Below are positions 43,986-52,082 of a stretch of 64,000 bases of DNA, piece after piece. Every line of letters begins with the position of its first letter. Position 1 is the first letter of the stretch. The stretch spans positions 744,001 to 808,000 of the forward strand of contig NZ_JAUSWJ010000001.1 of NCBI RefSeq assembly GCF_030815145.1, read 5' to 3'. Both the position numbers and the translations under genes were made by a program. A model generated the notes under the pieces. The model worked only from the letters and a program-made list of their open reading frames with translations, had not been told where the DNA came from and searched no databases. The stretch comes from Kaistia geumhonensis. GTDB taxonomy: Bacteria > Pseudomonadota > Alphaproteobacteria > Rhizobiales > Kaistiaceae.

Positions 43986-45140
43986 ATGAAAGTTTCGTTT
44001 GCTGGCCGCTCCGCCGTGTCCGGCCTGGCGGTGCTCTCGGCGCTGCTGATGTCGAGCGCGGCTTTCGCCGCCTCGGACGCCAAGAAGGTCGCCGACGACA
44101 TCGTCGCCGTCGTGCAGGCGCGCGGCGACGGCCAGGCGAGCTACGGCTCGGCCACCGCCAATGGCGATGTCGTGACAGTCAGCGACTTCAAGATCCTCTC
44201 GAAGAAGAACGGCGAGGTCACCATCCCCGCCATCGTCGTCACCAATCCGGCCGACCGCCAGCCGGGCGGCTTCACGGCGACGTCGATCGCCTTTGACGGC
44301 GGCAAGCTGCTCAAGGGCGACAACACGCTCAACTGGACGACCGGCCTCTCCAACGACGCCGTGGTACCGACCCCGGCCGAGCTCGCCGGCGACGTCAAGC
44401 TGACGCCGTTCTCGCATTTCGAGATCGCCGGCATCTCGGCGACGAACAAGAAGGACCAGCCGGAGCCGGTCAAGGTCGACAAGGTCTCGATCGACCTCAC
44501 CAATGTCGTGAACGGCCAGCCGGGCGACGTGAAGTTCTCCGTCGCCGGCGTGTCGGTGCCGCAGGCGGTGATCGCGACCGAACCGCAGGCCAAGGCGACG
44601 CTCGACCAGCTCGGCTATCAGAGCCTCCTGCTCAACTTCAATGTCGGCGCCTCCTATGACGACGCCAAGCAGTCGCTCTCGATCAATGAGGTCGAGGTCG
44701 ACGGCAAGGACATGGGCAAGCTGACGATCACCGGCTCGTTCGGCGGCCTGCCGCGCGACAAGCTGCAGAGCCAGGACGACATGAGCGCGCTGGCTTCGAC
44801 GGCGACGCTCGAGAACGCGACGATCCGCTTCGAGGACGCCGGCATCGCCAACAAGGTGCTGGAGATGCAGGCAAAGTCGATGGGCACCACTCGTGACAGC
44901 CTCGCCATGATGCTGCCGGCCGCGCTGCCGCTCGGCTTCAGCCAGCTCAACATCAACGACCCCGCCTTCCAGCAGAAGGTCGTCGATGCGGTGACCGCCT
45001 TCCTCAAGGACCCGAAGAGCTTCACAGTCATGCTGAAGCCCGCGCAGCCGGTGCTGATCCAGTCCATCGGCCAGTCGGCGATGTCCGCGCCGTCCTCGAT
45101 CCCGGGCCTGCTCGGCATCGACGTCCAGGCCAATAACTGA
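43986..45140 (+). CDS. Periplasmic protein of unknown function, tandem paralog A
   Basis: This 384-residue exported protein has a signal peptide of about 29 residues (ending AFAASD). It is rich in beta-strand-like sequence, with few cysteines. A C-terminal domain of about 175 residues starts near LGYQ (209) and has the pattern LGYQ...QSLS.NEVEVDGKDMG...GLPRDKL...DPAFQQKV...PGLLGIDV. The same domain ends the next gene. The ATG at 43986 follows GGAGGACAAG. I do not recognise the family and propose no activity. Confidence 0.8.
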   Translation: MKVSFAGRSAVSGLAVLSALLMSSAAFAASDAKKVADDIVAVVQARGDGQASYGSATANGDVVTVSDFKILSKKNGEVTIPAIVVTNPADRQPGGFTATSIAFDGGKLLKGDNTLNWTTGLSNDAVVPTPAELAGDVKLTPFSHFEIAGISATNKKDQPEPVKVDKVSIDLTNVVNGQPGDVKFSVAGVSVPQAVIATEPQAKATLDQLGYQSLLLNFNVGASYDDAKQSLSINEVEVDGKDMGKLTITGSFGGLPRDKLQSQDDMSALASTATLENATIRFEDAGIANKVLEMQAKSMGTTRDSLAMMLPAALPLGFSQLNINDPAFQQKVVDAVTAFLKDPKSFTVMLKPAQPVLIQSIGQSAMSAPSSIPGLLGIDVQANN

Positions 45141-45151
45141 GCCCTGACGAC

Positions 45152-45179
45152 GGACGCCCCGGCCAATGCCGGGGCGTCC
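45152..45179 (+). other. Long GC hairpin between the tandem paralogs
   Basis: A perfect 12-bp stem GGACGCCCCGGC/GCCGGGGCGTCC with a CAAT loop lies 12 bases after gene A and 41 bases before gene B. No T-run follows, so it may give partial termination or protect the upstream mRNA 3' end, setting unequal expression of the two genes. Confidence 0.6.
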
Positions 45180-45219
45180 TCCCCGCCCCGATCCGTCCTT
45201 CCGATCCAGGAGCGCCGCC

Positions 45220-47214
45220 ATGGCCCGCCGGAGCACGCAGACCCGTCTCCTCGTTCTCGGCTTTTCGGCCGCATTCGTCGTCGCGGCCGCTCCCGCGATG
45301 GCCGAGGAGCCCGTCGAGACCGCGATCCGCGGCTGGGTCACGAGCATCGACGCCTCGCCCAACTGGGTAGCCGGCTACGAGTCGCTCACCTATGACGACG
45401 CATCGCGGACCGCGACGCTGAAAAACCTCACCATCCGCAGCGAGACGCTCTCGACCAAGATTGAGATCGCGTTCGGCCAGGTGGCGGTCACGGGCTATGG
45501 CCAGACGCCGGATGGCGGCTTCACGGCGGTCTCCGTGACGACCAGCGACAGCCGTGCCGTGTTCGGCGCCTTCGCCGATGTGAAGCTTGGCCCGATCACC
45601 GCCGACACGGTGACGGTCCCGAGCTTCACCGGCTTCGTCTTCGATCCGGCGCGGCCCTTCACCGCCATGATCAAGGCCTATGCGATCGCCGCCCAGACGA
45701 CGATCGCGTCGCTCAAGATCGACAGCCTCGATTCCACCACCACCTTCGAGAACCAGACGACCAACGCCTCCTATGGCAGCTTCACGCTGACGGGGATGCA
45801 GAAGGGCATGATCGACCACGTCGTCGCCGGTCCCTTCACACAGGAGACGCCGAGCCCCGACGGGCTCGTCAACATGCGGGCCGACAAGCTCGAAGCCTTC
45901 AAGATGGACCTGAACGCGATCATCGACGTGTTCGACCCGGATCGCTACCAGGGCGGGGTCGGCGACGGTCGCTGGCGCAATGCGCTGGCGCTCGAGAAAT
46001 ATACCAACCTCTCCTTCGAGATCCCCGGCGGCAAGACGCGCTTCGGCAGCATCGAGCTGGAGAACCTGAAGGTCCGCCAGCCGCCGGCGAGCTTCGCCGC
46101 CTTCTTCGACGACATGCTCGCTCATCCCGAGATGTCCGAGAAGGAACTCGGCCAGAAGGCGCTCGATGCGATCCCGAATGTCTTCTACGCCTTCGGCTGG
46201 GACGCGTTCCGCTTTGTCGATCTCGACGTGACCGCGCCGGGCGTCGACCGCTTCCATCTCGGCGATTTCCACATCAACGACTATTCCAGCGACGGCATCG
46301 GCGAGATCGGCATCGCGGATCTCGACGTCGCCTCGGACAAGACCTCGGTCGGCGCCGAGCGGGCGGCGATGGGCGGCTTCAAGTTCCCCTCGCTCCAGGC
46401 GATCGTAGCGGCCGTGCGGGCCGAGGAAGCAGGCGTCGAGTCGGATCCGCTGCCGCTGATCCCGACGATGGGATATGCCGAGGCGGTCAATGTCTCCGTC
46501 GTCCAGGACGGCAAGACGGTCGGCGCCATCGATCGCGGCCGCGTCGATCTCGGCAATTATATCGGCCCGGTGCCGACGCAGGTCTCGGTTGACTTCCGCA
46601 ATCTGGTCGTCGACCAGTCGCTGATCGACGATGCCCGCGCCCGCGCCATGTTCGCCGAGCTCGGCTACCAGCAGGTGCAGGCGAACTATGGCTTCAAGCT
46701 CAACTGGCGCGAGGCGGACCAGAGCCTGACGCTCAGCGATTTCCGGTTCGACATCAAGGATTTCGGCTCGATCGCCGCCGAGGCGGTGCTCACGGGCCTC
46801 ACGCGCCAGGCGCTGGAGAACCCGAAGGGCCTCGAGGCCGCGCTGCCGAGCCTCCTGTTCCAGGGCGGCAAGGCCGTGGTCAAGGATGGATCGATCATCG
46901 ACCGTGCCATCGCGATGGAGGCCAAGAAGAAGGGCCAGACGCCGGAGAAATATCGCGAGGATCTCGCCGGCGCGATGCCGCTCACGCTGATGCTCGTGCT
47001 CAAGAATCCCGGCTTCCAGGAGAAGCTTGCGCCGGCACTGCAGGCCTTCATCCGCACGCCCGGCACGATGACGCTGACCGCGACGCCGGCGACGCCGGTT
47101 CCGCTCACCAGGATCATCGCGGCCGCCGAAGCCGATCCGCGCTCGCTGCCCGATCTGCTGTCGATCGACGTCAAGACGACGACCCCGGCCGCGCCGGCAG
47201 CGCCGCAGCCGTAA
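45220..47214 (+). CDS. Periplasmic protein of unknown function, tandem paralog B
   Basis: This 664-residue exported protein has a signal peptide of about 28 residues (ending AMAEE). The first 460 residues contain beta-rich segments including a PDGGFTAVSVTTSD-like block that also resembles gene A. The C-terminal domain from LGYQ (481) matches gene A from LGYQ (209): QSLTLSDFRFDIKDFG, GLTRQAL, NPGFQEKLAPALQAF and PDLLSIDV. It is the longer member of a duplicated pair and ends at a strong terminator. Its function is unknown. Confidence 0.82.
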   Translation: MARRSTQTRLLVLGFSAAFVVAAAPAMAEEPVETAIRGWVTSIDASPNWVAGYESLTYDDASRTATLKNLTIRSETLSTKIEIAFGQVAVTGYGQTPDGGFTAVSVTTSDSRAVFGAFADVKLGPITADTVTVPSFTGFVFDPARPFTAMIKAYAIAAQTTIASLKIDSLDSTTTFENQTTNASYGSFTLTGMQKGMIDHVVAGPFTQETPSPDGLVNMRADKLEAFKMDLNAIIDVFDPDRYQGGVGDGRWRNALALEKYTNLSFEIPGGKTRFGSIELENLKVRQPPASFAAFFDDMLAHPEMSEKELGQKALDAIPNVFYAFGWDAFRFVDLDVTAPGVDRFHLGDFHINDYSSDGIGEIGIADLDVASDKTSVGAERAAMGGFKFPSLQAIVAAVRAEEAGVESDPLPLIPTMGYAEAVNVSVVQDGKTVGAIDRGRVDLGNYIGPVPTQVSVDFRNLVVDQSLIDDARARAMFAELGYQQVQANYGFKLNWREADQSLTLSDFRFDIKDFGSIAAEAVLTGLTRQALENPKGLEAALPSLLFQGGKAVVKDGSIIDRAIAMEAKKKGQTPEKYREDLAGAMPLTLMLVLKNPGFQEKLAPALQAFIRTPGTMTLTATPATPVPLTRIIAAAEADPRSLPDLLSIDVKTTTPAAPAAPQP

Positions 47215-47231: not shown

Positions 47232-47272
47232 AAGGGCGCCGCGACCATCCGGTCCGGTGCCCTTTTCTTTTT
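47232..47272 (+). terminator. Terminator of the tandem paralog operon
   Basis: A 10-pair stem AAGGGCGCCG/CGGTGCCCTT (one G-T wobble) is followed by TTCTTTTTC. It lies 17 bases beyond the stop of paralog B and separates it from convergent azoR. Confidence 0.75.
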
Positions 47273-48022: not shown

Positions 48023-48658
48023 GTGGACACGCCTGATCGTGAACAGCCTGTTCACCGCTCTCCCCCAGGGGAGCGCGTGCCGCCGCGCCAGCGCATCCTC
48101 GATGCGGCGCGGACGCTGTTCTTCCGCCACGGCATCCAGGGCGTCGGCGTCGAGGCGATCGCCGAGGCGGCCGGCACCAACAAAATGACGCTCTACCGGC
48201 ATTTCGAATCGAAGGAGTTGCTGGTGGCGGAATATCTCCGCGCGCTGGCGGCGGAGAATGTCCGCGTCTGGGACGATCTCGAAGCTGCGCATCCCGGCGA
48301 TCCGCTGGCGCAGATCAGGGCCTGGCTGCATTCCGTAGGCGGCCACGGAGAGGGAATCGATCACAGCGGCTGCGCGATGATGAGCGCCGCCATCCAGATC
48401 GCCGATCCCGAGCATCCGGGGCGCAAGGCCGTCGAGGCGGCCCAGCGTACCCATCGGGAGAGGCTGGTCGCGCTCTGTCGTTCAGCGGAGCTGCGCGATC
48501 CGGAGCTTCTGGCCGACCAGCTCTTCCTGCTCGTCGAAGGCTCGCGCGCCGCCTATCGGAGTGTTGGTCCGGACGGCCCCGGCTCCAGCCTCTGCCGCCT
48601 CGCCGGGCCGCTCATCTCCGCACACCAGCAGCCGGCTGCGGCTTCGCCTGTCGTCTAG
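48023..48658 (+). CDS. TetR family transcriptional regulator
   Basis: This 211-residue TetR repressor has an N-terminal helix-turn-helix (about 22-66, ILDAARTLFFRHG through TLYRHFESKELL) and a C-terminal ligand domain with cysteines at CAMMS and ALCRS. The GTG at 48023 is the likely start. It is divergent from azoR and should repress azoR and itself through the palindromes in the spacer. The inducer is unknown. Its stop codon overlaps the cydC stop. Confidence 0.9.
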   Translation: MDTPDREQPVHRSPPGERVPPRQRILDAARTLFFRHGIQGVGVEAIAEAAGTNKMTLYRHFESKELLVAEYLRALAAENVRVWDDLEAAHPGDPLAQIRAWLHSVGGHGEGIDHSGCAMMSAAIQIADPEHPGRKAVEAAQRTHRERLVALCRSAELRDPELLADQLFLLVEGSRAAYRSVGPDGPGSSLCRLAGPLISAHQQPAAASPVV

Positions 48659-50307
48659 GCCGGCACCAGGCGTCCCCGCTCGAGTCGCAGCACGCGTTCG
48701 ACCGCAGCGCGATCGACGGCGGCGTGCGTCGCGAGAATCAGCGTCCGCCCTTCGGCGGCGGTCAGGAGATCGCCGAGGAACTCGGTTTCCGTCTCGGCGT
48801 CGAGGCCGGCGGTCGGTTCGTCGAGCAGGATGACCCGCGCCGGCGATAGAAGGGTGCGCGCAAGGCAGAGCCGCCGCGCCTGCCCGGCCGAGAGCGTCGC
48901 GCCGGCCTCGCCGAGCCAGGTGTCGAGCCCGTTCGGCAGCGACCGGACGAAGGCATCGAGCCGGGCATTGCCCAGCGCCGCATGCAGCGTGGCATCATCG
49001 GCGAAGGGCGACCCGATCCTGAGATTGTCGCGCACGGTGCCGATGAAGACGGGCGCATCCTGCGTCAGCAGTGCGATATGGGCGCGGAGGTCGGCGAGCG
49101 TCGCATCGCGAATGTCGATCCCGCCATATCGAATGGCGCCGGACGTGACGTCGTCGAGGCGCATGATCAGGGAGAGAAGCGTCGACTTGCCGGAGCCGCT
49201 GGTCCCGATCAGTGCGATCCGCTCGCCGGGCCCTGCCGTAAGGCTCACATCCGCGAGGACCGCGCGGCCGTTGTCATAGGCATAGCCGACCGTCTCGATC
49301 TCCAGCGTCCCGACGCCCGGCAGCCGCGCCGGAGCCACCGGATCGCGCACCGAGGGGGCCGCCGAGACGAGCGCCTCCACCCGCCGGCCGGCGGCCAAGG
49401 CGCTACCGAGCCGGGCAGCACCGCGCAGGATCGGGCCCGTCACTTCGAAAAGCGCCAGGATCGCGAGCAGGATGCCGGCGAGCACGGGCCCCGCGAGCCG
49501 CCCCTCTTCGACCGCCGCGAGGCCGAGCCAGAGGGTGCCGGCCATCGTCAGTCCGGCGCCGAGCTGGGCGAGCGCCGGGCCGAGCGCAATGCGGCGCGCT
49601 TCGGCGAGCTTCGCTTGGCGGAGCACAGCCGCCGCCTCGCTGAAGCGCTTCTCGCCGCTCGCCAGCGCGCCCAGCGCCGCGAGATCGAGATGGCCGTCCA
49701 TGCCGTCGAGCGCGGCGATCCTGAGATCGGCCGACGCCTTGACCGTCGCGGTGCCGACCGCCCGGCCGGTGGCGACCAGCACCAGCGGCACGGCCAGCGC
49801 CGTGGCCGCGAAGCCGGCGAGCCCGATCGGCAAGGCCTCGGGCAGCGTGAGCGCAAGCAGCAGCGCGAGCCCGCCCGCGCCGGCCAGCGCCGTCATCAGC
49901 GGCAGCAGCGCCTGCAACAGGACGAGATCGAGCTGTTCGATATCGGATGTGAGGCGGGCGACGAAGTCTCCGGTGCGGCTGGACACGCCCTTCAGCGGCA
50001 CCAGCGGGATGAGCCGCCCGAAGACGGCGGCGCGCAGATCCGAAAGCAGCGACAGCGTCGCGGCGTGGCCGGTTATCCGCTCGCCATAGCGCGCCCCGAT
50101 GCGCAGGAAGGAGAAACCGCGCACCAGCGCCGACGGCGCGAAGAGCTCGAAGGTCGCGCCCGCCGCTCCCGCGAGCGCGGCGCCGGTCAGGAACCATCCG
50201 GAGACGCCGAGGAGCCCGATTCCCGCCGCCAATGTCAGGATCGAGAGGAAGAGCGCCAGCGAAAACGCCCCCAGCCGCTTGCGGACCAGCGAGAAGAGCA
50301 GCCTCAT
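48655..50307 (-). CDS. cydC: Cysteine/glutathione exporter subunit CydC
   Basis: This 550-residue half-ABC exporter, with CydD, exports thiols to the periplasm and is needed for heme insertion in cytochrome bd. It has six membrane helices (about 1-310) and a nucleotide-binding domain with Walker A GTSGSGKST, signature LSAGQARR and Walker B VILLDEPTAGLD. The ATG at 50307 overlaps the cydD stop by 4 bases. Convergent with tetR, it shares a CTAG in which both stop codons lie. Confidence 0.93.
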   Translation of the reverse strand: MRLLFSLVRKRLGAFSLALFLSILTLAAGIGLLGVSGWFLTGAALAGAAGATFELFAPSALVRGFSFLRIGARYGERITGHAATLSLLSDLRAAVFGRLIPLVPLKGVSSRTGDFVARLTSDIEQLDLVLLQALLPLMTALAGAGGLALLLALTLPEALPIGLAGFAATALAVPLVLVATGRAVGTATVKASADLRIAALDGMDGHLDLAALGALASGEKRFSEAAAVLRQAKLAEARRIALGPALAQLGAGLTMAGTLWLGLAAVEEGRLAGPVLAGILLAILALFEVTGPILRGAARLGSALAAGRRVEALVSAAPSVRDPVAPARLPGVGTLEIETVGYAYDNGRAVLADVSLTAGPGERIALIGTSGSGKSTLLSLIMRLDDVTSGAIRYGGIDIRDATLADLRAHIALLTQDAPVFIGTVRDNLRIGSPFADDATLHAALGNARLDAFVRSLPNGLDTWLGEAGATLSAGQARRLCLARTLLSPARVILLDEPTAGLDAETETEFLGDLLTAAEGRTLILATHAAVDRAAVERVLRLERGRLVPA

Positions 50308-52082
50308 GTCCGCTCTCCCTGTTCGCGCAGCTTTTCCCGGGCCGCAGCCGGCCGGTGAGGAACCGGCAGCAACCGGCCACCGGCGATGCGGTAGATGCGG
50401 TCCATGCGCCGGGCAACGGCCTGCGAGTGCGTCGCCACGATCAGCGTCCGCCCTTCGGAAAAGGCGAGGATCGCATCGACGATCCGCGCCTCGGTGTCCG
50501 CGTCGAGATGGGCGGTCGGCTCGTCGAGCAGAACCAGGCCGGGATCGGTGAGGAAGAGGCGCGCCAGCGCGACGCGGTGCGCCTCGCCGCCGGAAATGCC
50601 CCTGCCCCGCTCGCCGACCGGCGTCGCCAGCCCCTCGCCGCGATCGGCGAACTCCATGACGAGGGCGGCGCGCGCCGCCGCCTCGACCGCCGCCTCGTCG
50701 GCGCCGCGCCGCGCCAGGCGGATATTGTCGGCGATGGAGCCGTGAAAAAGACGCGGCCGCTGCGGGATGAGGACGACGCGCGAGCGCAGCTCCTCCTCGC
50801 CGATCTCCGGAAGCGGCACGCCGCCGATCGCGATCCCGCCCTCGGCCGCGCGAAGCCGCGCGATCGCCTCGACCAGCGTCGACTTGCCGATGCCGCTCGG
50901 CCCCAGCAGCGCGACGCTCGTGCCGGGCGGGATGTCGAGCGTCACCTCGCGAAGCACCGTGCCCCGCCCCGGCGCATCGACGCCGACACCGGCGAGCGTG
51001 ACCGCGAGCGGCCCCTGCGGCAGCGCCTGCCCGGAGCGTGCCGGCGCGATATCGGCGTCGGTGCCGGGCAGGCCGATCACCGAGGCGATGTCGGCGACCG
51101 CCGCCTTGGCGGCCGCGCGGTCGTGATAATGCGCGGCCAGCGTCCGGAGCGGCATATAGACGTCCGGCGCCATCAGCAGGCAGAAGAGACCCGCCTGCAG
51201 GGAGAGCGGCGCGCCGCGCAGGTCGATATAGCCGAGATAGGTGAGGCCGACATAGAGCGCGACGCCGGCGACGCCGATGGCGGCGAAGAACTCCAGCACG
51301 GCCGAGGACAGGAAGGCGATCCTGAGCACGCCGAGCGTGCGCGCCGCCACATCGTCGCTCGCCGCGCGGACTCGGGCCACCTCGTCCTCGGCCCGGCCGA
51401 AGAGCTTCAGCACGACGATTCCGCGCAGCCGGTCGGCGAAGAGGCCAGAAAGCCGCGTGAAGGCGGTGAGATGGCGGCGGCTCGCCGCCTCGGCGCCCCA
51501 TCCGACCAGCGCCATGAAGGCCGGAATGAGCGGCGCGGTCACGAAGAAGAGCACGCCGATGACGAGGTCGATCGGCATCAGGCCGATAGCGAAGGCGAGC
51601 GGGAGGATCGCCGCCGCGATCATCGCCGGCATGAAACGGGCGAAATAGCCGTCGAGCGCCTCCACCGAATCGACCAGTTGCGCGGCGATGACGCCGGAAC
51701 TCTTGTCGCGGAACCATTCAGGCGAGCGGCGGACGAGCGAGGCCTGCAGCGCGCCGCGGATGGCGTGCTTCGCATCCTCGGAGGCTCGGGCCCCTGCCCG
51801 CTCGCCGACATAGGCGAGCAGAGCGCGCGCGGCGACGATGGCGACCAGAAGCGCGGCGAGACCGGCCTGCTCCGCGCGTGGCACGTTTCCCGCGAGCGCC
51901 CGGTCGATCAGCACAGCGAGCACATAGGCCTGCGCGACCGTGAAGACGCCGGCGACCAGCGGAACGGCGATGGCGATCCTGAGCCAGGCGCCGCCGGCCC
52001 GCTTCTGCGCCTTGAGCCACGCGCCGCTTTCCGCGCCGGCCAGCGGCGAAGGGCGTGTGGGATTGTGCTCGATCGTGCTCAT
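50304..52082 (-). CDS. cydD: Cysteine/glutathione exporter subunit CydD
   Basis: This 592-residue half-ABC exporter is the partner of CydC. Six membrane helices are followed by the nucleotide-binding domain with Walker A GPSGIGKST, signature ISGGEAHR and Walker B LVLLDEPTAHLD. ATG codons at 52082 and 52088 both fit the GGGAT upstream; I use 52082. It starts a leftward cydDC operon, divergent from the DUF1576 gene. The FNR/FixK box lies at cydA, not here. Confidence 0.92.
   Translation of the reverse strand: MSTIEHNPTRPSPLAGAESGAWLKAQKRAGGAWLRIAIAVPLVAGVFTVAQAYVLAVLIDRALAGNVPRAEQAGLAALLVAIVAARALLAYVGERAGARASEDAKHAIRGALQASLVRRSPEWFRDKSSGVIAAQLVDSVEALDGYFARFMPAMIAAAILPLAFAIGLMPIDLVIGVLFFVTAPLIPAFMALVGWGAEAASRRHLTAFTRLSGLFADRLRGIVVLKLFGRAEDEVARVRAASDDVAARTLGVLRIAFLSSAVLEFFAAIGVAGVALYVGLTYLGYIDLRGAPLSLQAGLFCLLMAPDVYMPLRTLAAHYHDRAAAKAAVADIASVIGLPGTDADIAPARSGQALPQGPLAVTLAGVGVDAPGRGTVLREVTLDIPPGTSVALLGPSGIGKSTLVEAIARLRAAEGGIAIGGVPLPEIGEEELRSRVVLIPQRPRLFHGSIADNIRLARRGADEAAVEAAARAALVMEFADRGEGLATPVGERGRGISGGEAHRVALARLFLTDPGLVLLDEPTAHLDADTEARIVDAILAFSEGRTLIVATHSQAVARRMDRIYRIAGGRLLPVPHRPAAAREKLREQGERT

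Follow-up and report, generated by a model that had tools for sequence, protein, structure and literature searches.

A conserved pair of exported paralogs in Kaistia geumhonensis and its possible affinity to open beta-groove periplasmic proteins

The locus described here raises the question of what two adjacent, apparently exported proteins of Kaistia geumhonensis do and to which kind of protein they belong. The window is the whole stretch of DNA that was analysed, 64,000 nucleotides long (NCBI RefSeq assembly GCF_030815145.1, contig NZ_JAUSWJ010000001.1, positions 744,001 to 808,000 of the forward strand). It encodes a short paralog of 384 residues, named P1, followed by a long paralog of 664 residues, named P2. 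The pair is real, conserved, ancient and uncatalogued, and it is not private to this bacterium. The family is probably a variant of a known protein kind, its fold may lie outside the structure lists, and an envelope function not yet described is plausible.

Paralogy, internal repeat, spread and conserved signals of the pair

The following features were assigned to the pair, with gene starts picked by script, without a gene finder.

43986-45140, + strand: P1, short paralog, 384 residues, predicted exported (open reading frame and orthologs in alignment A1)
45220-47214, + strand: P2, long paralog, 664 residues, predicted exported (open reading frame and orthologs in alignment A2)
43986-44069, + strand: putative signal peptide of P1, residues 1-28, with an A-x-A end (from motif and conservation only)
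45220-45303, + strand: putative signal peptide of P2, residues 1-28, with an A-x-A end (from motif and conservation only)
44463-45137, + strand: shared C-terminal domain of P1, residues 160-384, with an LGY strand, a KDxG hairpin, helices and a P-x-x-P end
45304-46197, + strand: extra N-terminal part of P2, residues 29-326, related to the N-terminal part of P1 (profile-profile probability 98.6%)
46201-47184, + strand: P1-like half of P2, residues 328-655 (profile-profile probability 100%)
46486-47190, + strand: shared C-terminal domain of P2, as in profile A8

A preliminary description of this DNA had named two adjacent exported proteins of these lengths with a C-terminal domain in common, and both reading frames and the domain were found as described. 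The LGYQ motif stands at residues 209 and 481, and the proteins end in LLGIDV (P1) and LLSIDV (P2). The two C-terminal halves align far above chance in BLASTP (29% identity over 218 columns, 105 bits, E 5e-29), and residues 61-384 of P1 matched residues 328-655 of P2 with a profile-profile probability of 100%. The weaker N-terminal similarity was recovered as well, with residues 20-322 of P1 aligned on residues 20-326 of P2 at a probability of 98.6% (E 1e-15), values somewhat inflated by the signal peptides, which were kept. These two profile alignments show P2 to be approximately a P1-like unit preceded by another, diverged N-terminal copy.

In a tree of 70 shared domains, to which the P2-like protein L072 contributed no domain, a single branch with a support of 97/94 split 37 P1-like rows from 33 P2-like rows. 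The clean split indicates that the duplication, already named in the preliminary description, is older than the divergence of the sampled families. As a separate observation, P1 and P2 of one locus (L054, 285-4775, - strand) are accompanied in tandem by a third, highly diverged member (tree branch 3.28).

P1 and P2 have a hydrophobic start with an A-x-A end, and A26 and A28 are at least 90% conserved across 26 P1-like and 28 P2-like proteins, which fits a cleaved Sec signal. Both proteins thus look exported by a Sec-type route, as predicted from the motif and its conservation. No lipobox was seen in either of them.

The pair had also been described as a near-private operon, and this claim does not stand. 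In the own genome (4.59 Mb, single contig), P1 and P2 are the only copies at E <= 0.001. Among 61 genomes of the genus, family and order, however, profile matches were obtained for P1 in 38 and for P2 in 38, some of them being cross-matches of one paralog to the other. The 38 genomes comprise 13 of 14 in the genus (own included), all 14 in the rest of the family, and 11 of 33 in other families of the order. Of the 41 loci read, which are the window and 40 fetched ones (with the matching genome G027 left out), 29 contained both genes: 13 of them are from the genus, another 13 from other members of the family and three from farther afield. The P1 profile A1 matched 37 of 240 genomes in the class sample. 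In the phylum sample, the shared-domain profile A8 matched 59 of 299 genomes; besides the own genome, 34 of these belong to its order and a further 11 to its class, and 13 lie outside that class. Three genomes of the same order were among the misses listed for this sample, which has 220 further misses without names. By these profile matches, the shared domain is common within the order and has a patchy distribution outside it.

Among named relatives, the nearest one found is a Bosea sp. metagenome-assembled genome, whose P2 is 95% identical. The relative in Sinorhizobium meliloti is a 396-residue 'hypothetical protein' with a convergent aspS on the same stretch, and the P2-like relative in S. 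medicae is a 667-residue 'hypothetical protein' (L235, 3768-5771) that lies between thiC and a set of sigma-54 regulator, sensor kinase and dicarboxylate symporter. The locus name SMb20614 led to no paper, and two viral-contig scans returned no relative.

Two groups of more distant proteins were also seen. In another genome of the class (G086), three family-like proteins with anchor-like starts stand in tandem (L177, 2885-8008, - strand); a sub-threshold DUF945 match fell at the start of the middle one and was not seen when that protein was scanned (L177:4472-6520). Outside the class, six proteins of 417-551 residues (L161, L162, L164, L165, L170 and L171) have anchor-like starts and part of the shared domain, followed by a different C-terminal region; L161, L164, L165 and L170 were submitted to Pfam, and no family was over cut-off.

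The preliminary description had recognised no family. This holds for Pfam and NCBIfam, in which neither P1 nor P2 matched any family over its cut-off; it does not hold entirely, as there are weak pointers to open beta-groove proteins (DUF945/YdgA, JlpA and AsmA-like). The searched libraries lack this family, and the literature searches were aimed at related names rather than at the family sequence. P1, P2 and the alignment members did not match the Pfam AsmA, DUF748 and YhdP models, and the members of A1 and A2 gave scattered library matches to unrelated families only. Searches of PDB sequences with P1, A1, A2 and A8 returned nothing credible; in the designed-repeat matches of A8, the displayed alignments cover a single helix only. 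DUF3954, PRK11640 and other sub-threshold matches were dismissed as chance, as was TULIP (JHBP), which was under its cut-off (19.4 of 29.2 bits) and touched 47 residues of one of the 28 P2-like proteins.

The proposed groove fold and its putative remote relatives

We tentatively propose, as the possibility to which we lean, that P1 and P2 are soluble periplasmic proteins with an open beta-groove, of the kind of YdgA, JlpA and AsmA, whose role in envelope upkeep would be to bind acyl chains or some other hydrophobic ligand. The two would be an ancient Sec-exported periplasmic pair from an uncatalogued family. In the proposed fold, an N-terminal helix would lead into a long beta-sheet that curves strongly without closing completely, and helices would form the C terminus; P1 would be a single unit of this kind, and P2 would amount to about one and a half to two of them. 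The hydrophobic ligand would be bound on the concave face and might be the acyl chain of a phospholipid or of a lipoprotein, or some other lipid of the periplasm. In outer-membrane lipid or lipoprotein upkeep, P1 and P2 might then serve as carriers in solution or work together with the anchored AsmA-like proteins of the genome.

The fold type and a remote kinship with DUF945/YdgA and, less so, with AsmA are weakly indicated by the comparisons below, whereas ligand binding, transport direction and physiological role are inferred by analogy. The accessible parts of two papers implicate AsmA-like proteins in glycerophospholipid transport (PMC10900882, PMC6791001). The lipid-binding step is proposed because AsmA-like proteins are reported in this transport and, in the case of GspN, in lipoprotein transport.

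The DUF945/YdgA family (PF06097) gave the clearest sequence signal, judged against decoys that were reversed sequences, keeping composition and beta periodicity. The DUF945 alignment had 26 rows, including L124 (probably in a wrong frame) and L121 (cut short); alignment A9, with 24 rows, omits both. With the DUF945 profile without its anchor, P1 was the best of 238 sequences (119 real and 119 reversed), at E 3.6e-6. At E < 0.2, 21 real sequences were matched against four reversed ones, the best reversed at 0.023. In the opposite direction, the DUF945 members L109 and L117 took the top two places among 142 sequences (71 real and 71 reversed) for the P1 profile, for A8, and for a profile named 'broad', from which L172, L170 and L171 were left out. 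With the P1 profile, they reached E 5.8e-6 and 2.5e-4 against 1.5e-3 for the best decoy. Both directions of the HMMER comparison thus stood above reversed decoys for three of the four family profiles. In the full-length sets, start picking had shortened the class-level row L079 to 40 residues. The HMMER alignment spans residues 157-331 of P1 and is strongest at a strand-turn-strand motif (residues 218-262 of P1 in hhalign).

In L166, the full shared domain (E 5.3e-19) is joined to an N terminus that scores below the DUF945 cut-off (E 1.9e-4, 21.1 of 26.8 bits); judged from these matches, L166 is possibly an intermediate between DUF945 and the family of P1 and P2. L089, a class-level relative, has a sub-threshold DUF945 start at E 0.12. 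Judged by eye, the N terminus of many class-level relatives resembles a membrane anchor, as in AsmA and YdgA. DUF945/YdgA resembles P1 and P2 in being beta-rich, in its similar length, and in the reciprocal local profile similarity above decoys; however, its fetched members start with an anchor-like segment, whereas P1 and P2 have an A-x-A signal. It also differs in distribution, as it was over cut-off in 25 of 150 phylum-sample genomes, all of which lie outside the class and order of this bacterium, and the own genome has no DUF945 match.

For the AsmA-like clan (AsmA, TamB, YhdP and YdbH), the main pointer is L172, a bona fide AsmA protein (Pfam AsmA 2.7e-55) that matches the shared domain at E 8.3e-7 in its genome. 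Four other AsmA members and no decoy were among the matches listed at a domain E < 0.05. The clan shares with P1 and P2 a predicted beta-rich body after an N-terminal helix, and with many of their relatives an anchor-like N terminus (by eye); P1 and P2 differ in that they look soluble and short and have no Pfam AsmA match. Within the order, DUF2125 (PF09898) is a common family, matched in 25 of 41 genomes at E <= 0.001; the own genome has one copy, and the family is reported near Chorein-N in the accessible part of PMC6791001. The AsmA-family and DUF2125 genes of the own genome lie elsewhere. Of the 24 DUF2125 rows, three were wrong picks and were left out.

The initial hhalign probabilities of 48-53% between P1 and both AsmA and DUF2125 were set aside after signal and anchor residues had been trimmed; for DUF2125, the value fell from 52.6% to 18.7%. 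The trimmed AsmA, DUF945 and DUF2125 profiles gave 15%, 3% and 35% among themselves, which places these families mutually at the edge of detection.

Structure models of P1 and P2 were produced with AlphaFold2, both from the same four sequences. When the P1 model was compared with the PDB by Foldseek, the Campylobacter protein JlpA (PDB 3uau) was the sole chain at E <= 0.001 (E 1.4e-4, probability 1.00; next other entry 0.067). By Z, it was also in rank 1 (Z 9.0, 241 aligned residues, root-mean-square deviation 5.0), and the next row had 7.8. For the P2 model, which was compared in its own run, JlpA was again in rank 1 (E 5.4e-3, probability 0.99; Z 7.3, 199 aligned residues, next row 6.2). JlpA is therefore the best solved-structure match of both models, although it belongs to a different phylum and has 7-11% identity to P1 and P2. 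No sequence-profile match to 3uau was obtained with A1, A2, A8 or the DUF945 alignment A9. The predicted strands alternate polar and apolar residues somewhat above shuffles, with 96 and 134 of 2000 shuffles reaching the observed value.

Several results weigh against the groove proposal. The Pfam DUF945 and AsmA models do not match P1 or P2 (DUF945 up to E 10). With the P2 profile, only L117 beat the best decoy, by a small margin (2.8e-4 vs 8.9e-4). Decoys reach E ~1e-3, so the sequence E-values are inflated, by an estimated hundredfold. In hhalign, whole-length profiles gave 12-20% to DUF945 (reversed DUF945 controls up to 2.0%), and the C-terminal domain alone gave about 3%, in one run no better than reversed (2.7% vs 2.8%). 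The AsmA profile did not separate the family from decoys (11 real vs eight reversed), nor did the DUF2125 profile (seven vs eight), and the hhalign probability of P1 to AsmA fell from 48% to 2% after trimming. On the structural side, the models are poor, with a mean predicted local distance difference test of 52 for P1 and 42.5 for P2 and predicted template modelling scores of 0.45 and 0.33. The TM-scores of the P1 model matches are low (0.33-0.38), and since the models share their four sequences, the two JlpA matches count as one piece of evidence. JlpA is moreover a lipoprotein, whereas P1 and P2 show no lipobox, and the alternation test is weak, as any amphipathic sheet passes it.

Competing explanations and significance

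The alternative that survives best is that P1 and P2 form an unrelated, ordinary beta-rich periplasmic family without a lipid role, in which the links to DUF945, AsmA and JlpA reflect amphipathic beta repeats only. The low model confidence, the low profile-profile probabilities and the decoys at E ~1e-3 agree with it. However, with three of the four family profiles the DUF945 matches outscored every decoy in both directions, and JlpA stands out from the lower rows for the P1 model. We consider this explanation doubtful.

A specific form of the groove proposal would make P1 and P2 the soluble arm of an AsmA-like lipid-transfer machinery in Alphaproteobacteria, as short and long beta-groove carriers, anciently duplicated and freed from the anchor, that shuttle lipids beside or between anchored bridges. 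In this detail, it is rather unlikely.

If P1 and P2 were like JlpA in role and fold, a surface or periplasmic groove would bind a protein or glycan partner and not lipid. The best structural match of both models is in line with this, and JlpA is described as a lipoprotein that binds HSP90-alpha (a 'surface-exposed lipoprotein adhesin' in a title cited in the accessible part of PMC10810038). Against it, no lipobox was seen in P1 or P2, and relatives occur throughout the class as well as the order, with N termini that in many of them look anchor-like by eye. This broad spread and these N termini fit a general periplasmic role better than adhesion. A JlpA-like role is quite unlikely.

A groove that chaperones acylated proteins, as an accessory to protein or lipoprotein export like GspN, an AsmA-like protein of the type II secretion system, has an equally slim prospect: GspN is reported in the accessible part of PMC12802150 to be AsmA-like and to be required by a different bacterium for transporting lipoproteins, and sub-threshold GspN_Lepto matches occurred in one of 26 P1-like (E 0.0033) and one of 28 P2-like proteins (E 0.45), but these are single members among unrelated families of like E-value, and the named neighbours in the flanks, annotated in part, are not secretion genes.

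Phospholipid crossing of the periplasm is still debated, and AsmA-like proteins have been proposed for it, according to the accessible part of PMC10900882. Among the literature matches listed, there was no systematic study of AsmA-like proteins in Alphaproteobacteria and no functional study of DUF945/YdgA. If the groove proposal is true, widespread uncatalogued groove proteins, soluble or anchored, would add candidates for periplasmic lipid transport in Alphaproteobacteria, and DUF945/YdgA would gain a set of relatives. If the lipid role fails, the analysis would still define a new family whose clear orthologs can be annotated.

Hairpins and neighbouring genes

Two hairpins accompany the genes.

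45152-45179, + strand: perfect 12-bp hairpin with loop CAAT between the P1 and P2 genes, without a T run
about 47232-47272, + strand: intrinsic-terminator-like hairpin and T tract after P2

Both had been pointed out in the preliminary description and were borne out, with a z of -4.0 for the intergenic stretch and -4.4 for the strong terminator after P2. At the same intergenic site, L039 and L041-L044 have a hairpin with T5-T6 after it, and L038 has one with TTT, which suggests that the hairpin may be a partial terminator. As the window hairpin has no T run, the ratios of P1 to P2 expression may differ between the window and these six loci.

On one side of the window pair lie an RluA-family pseudouridine synthase and CrcB; the genes on its other side encode a TetR-type regulator and a flavodoxin-fold azoreductase-like protein. 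The named neighbours of the pair and of the loci outside the genus gave no functional lead. After the last family gene, aspS lies on the opposite strand in 17 of 28 loci outside the genus and in none of the 13 genus loci, in the stretch read; it was named by NCBIfam in L067 and by similarity elsewhere. This adjacency marks an old location and does not establish that the genes act together. In L058, aspS is followed by rnd, an exopolyphosphatase-like gene and ppk, with RNase D and polyphosphate kinase over their cut-offs and the exopolyphosphatase just under its own. Further along the window (48655-51717, - strand), there is a large open reading frame whose second half resembles a CydC-type ABC exporter by eye.

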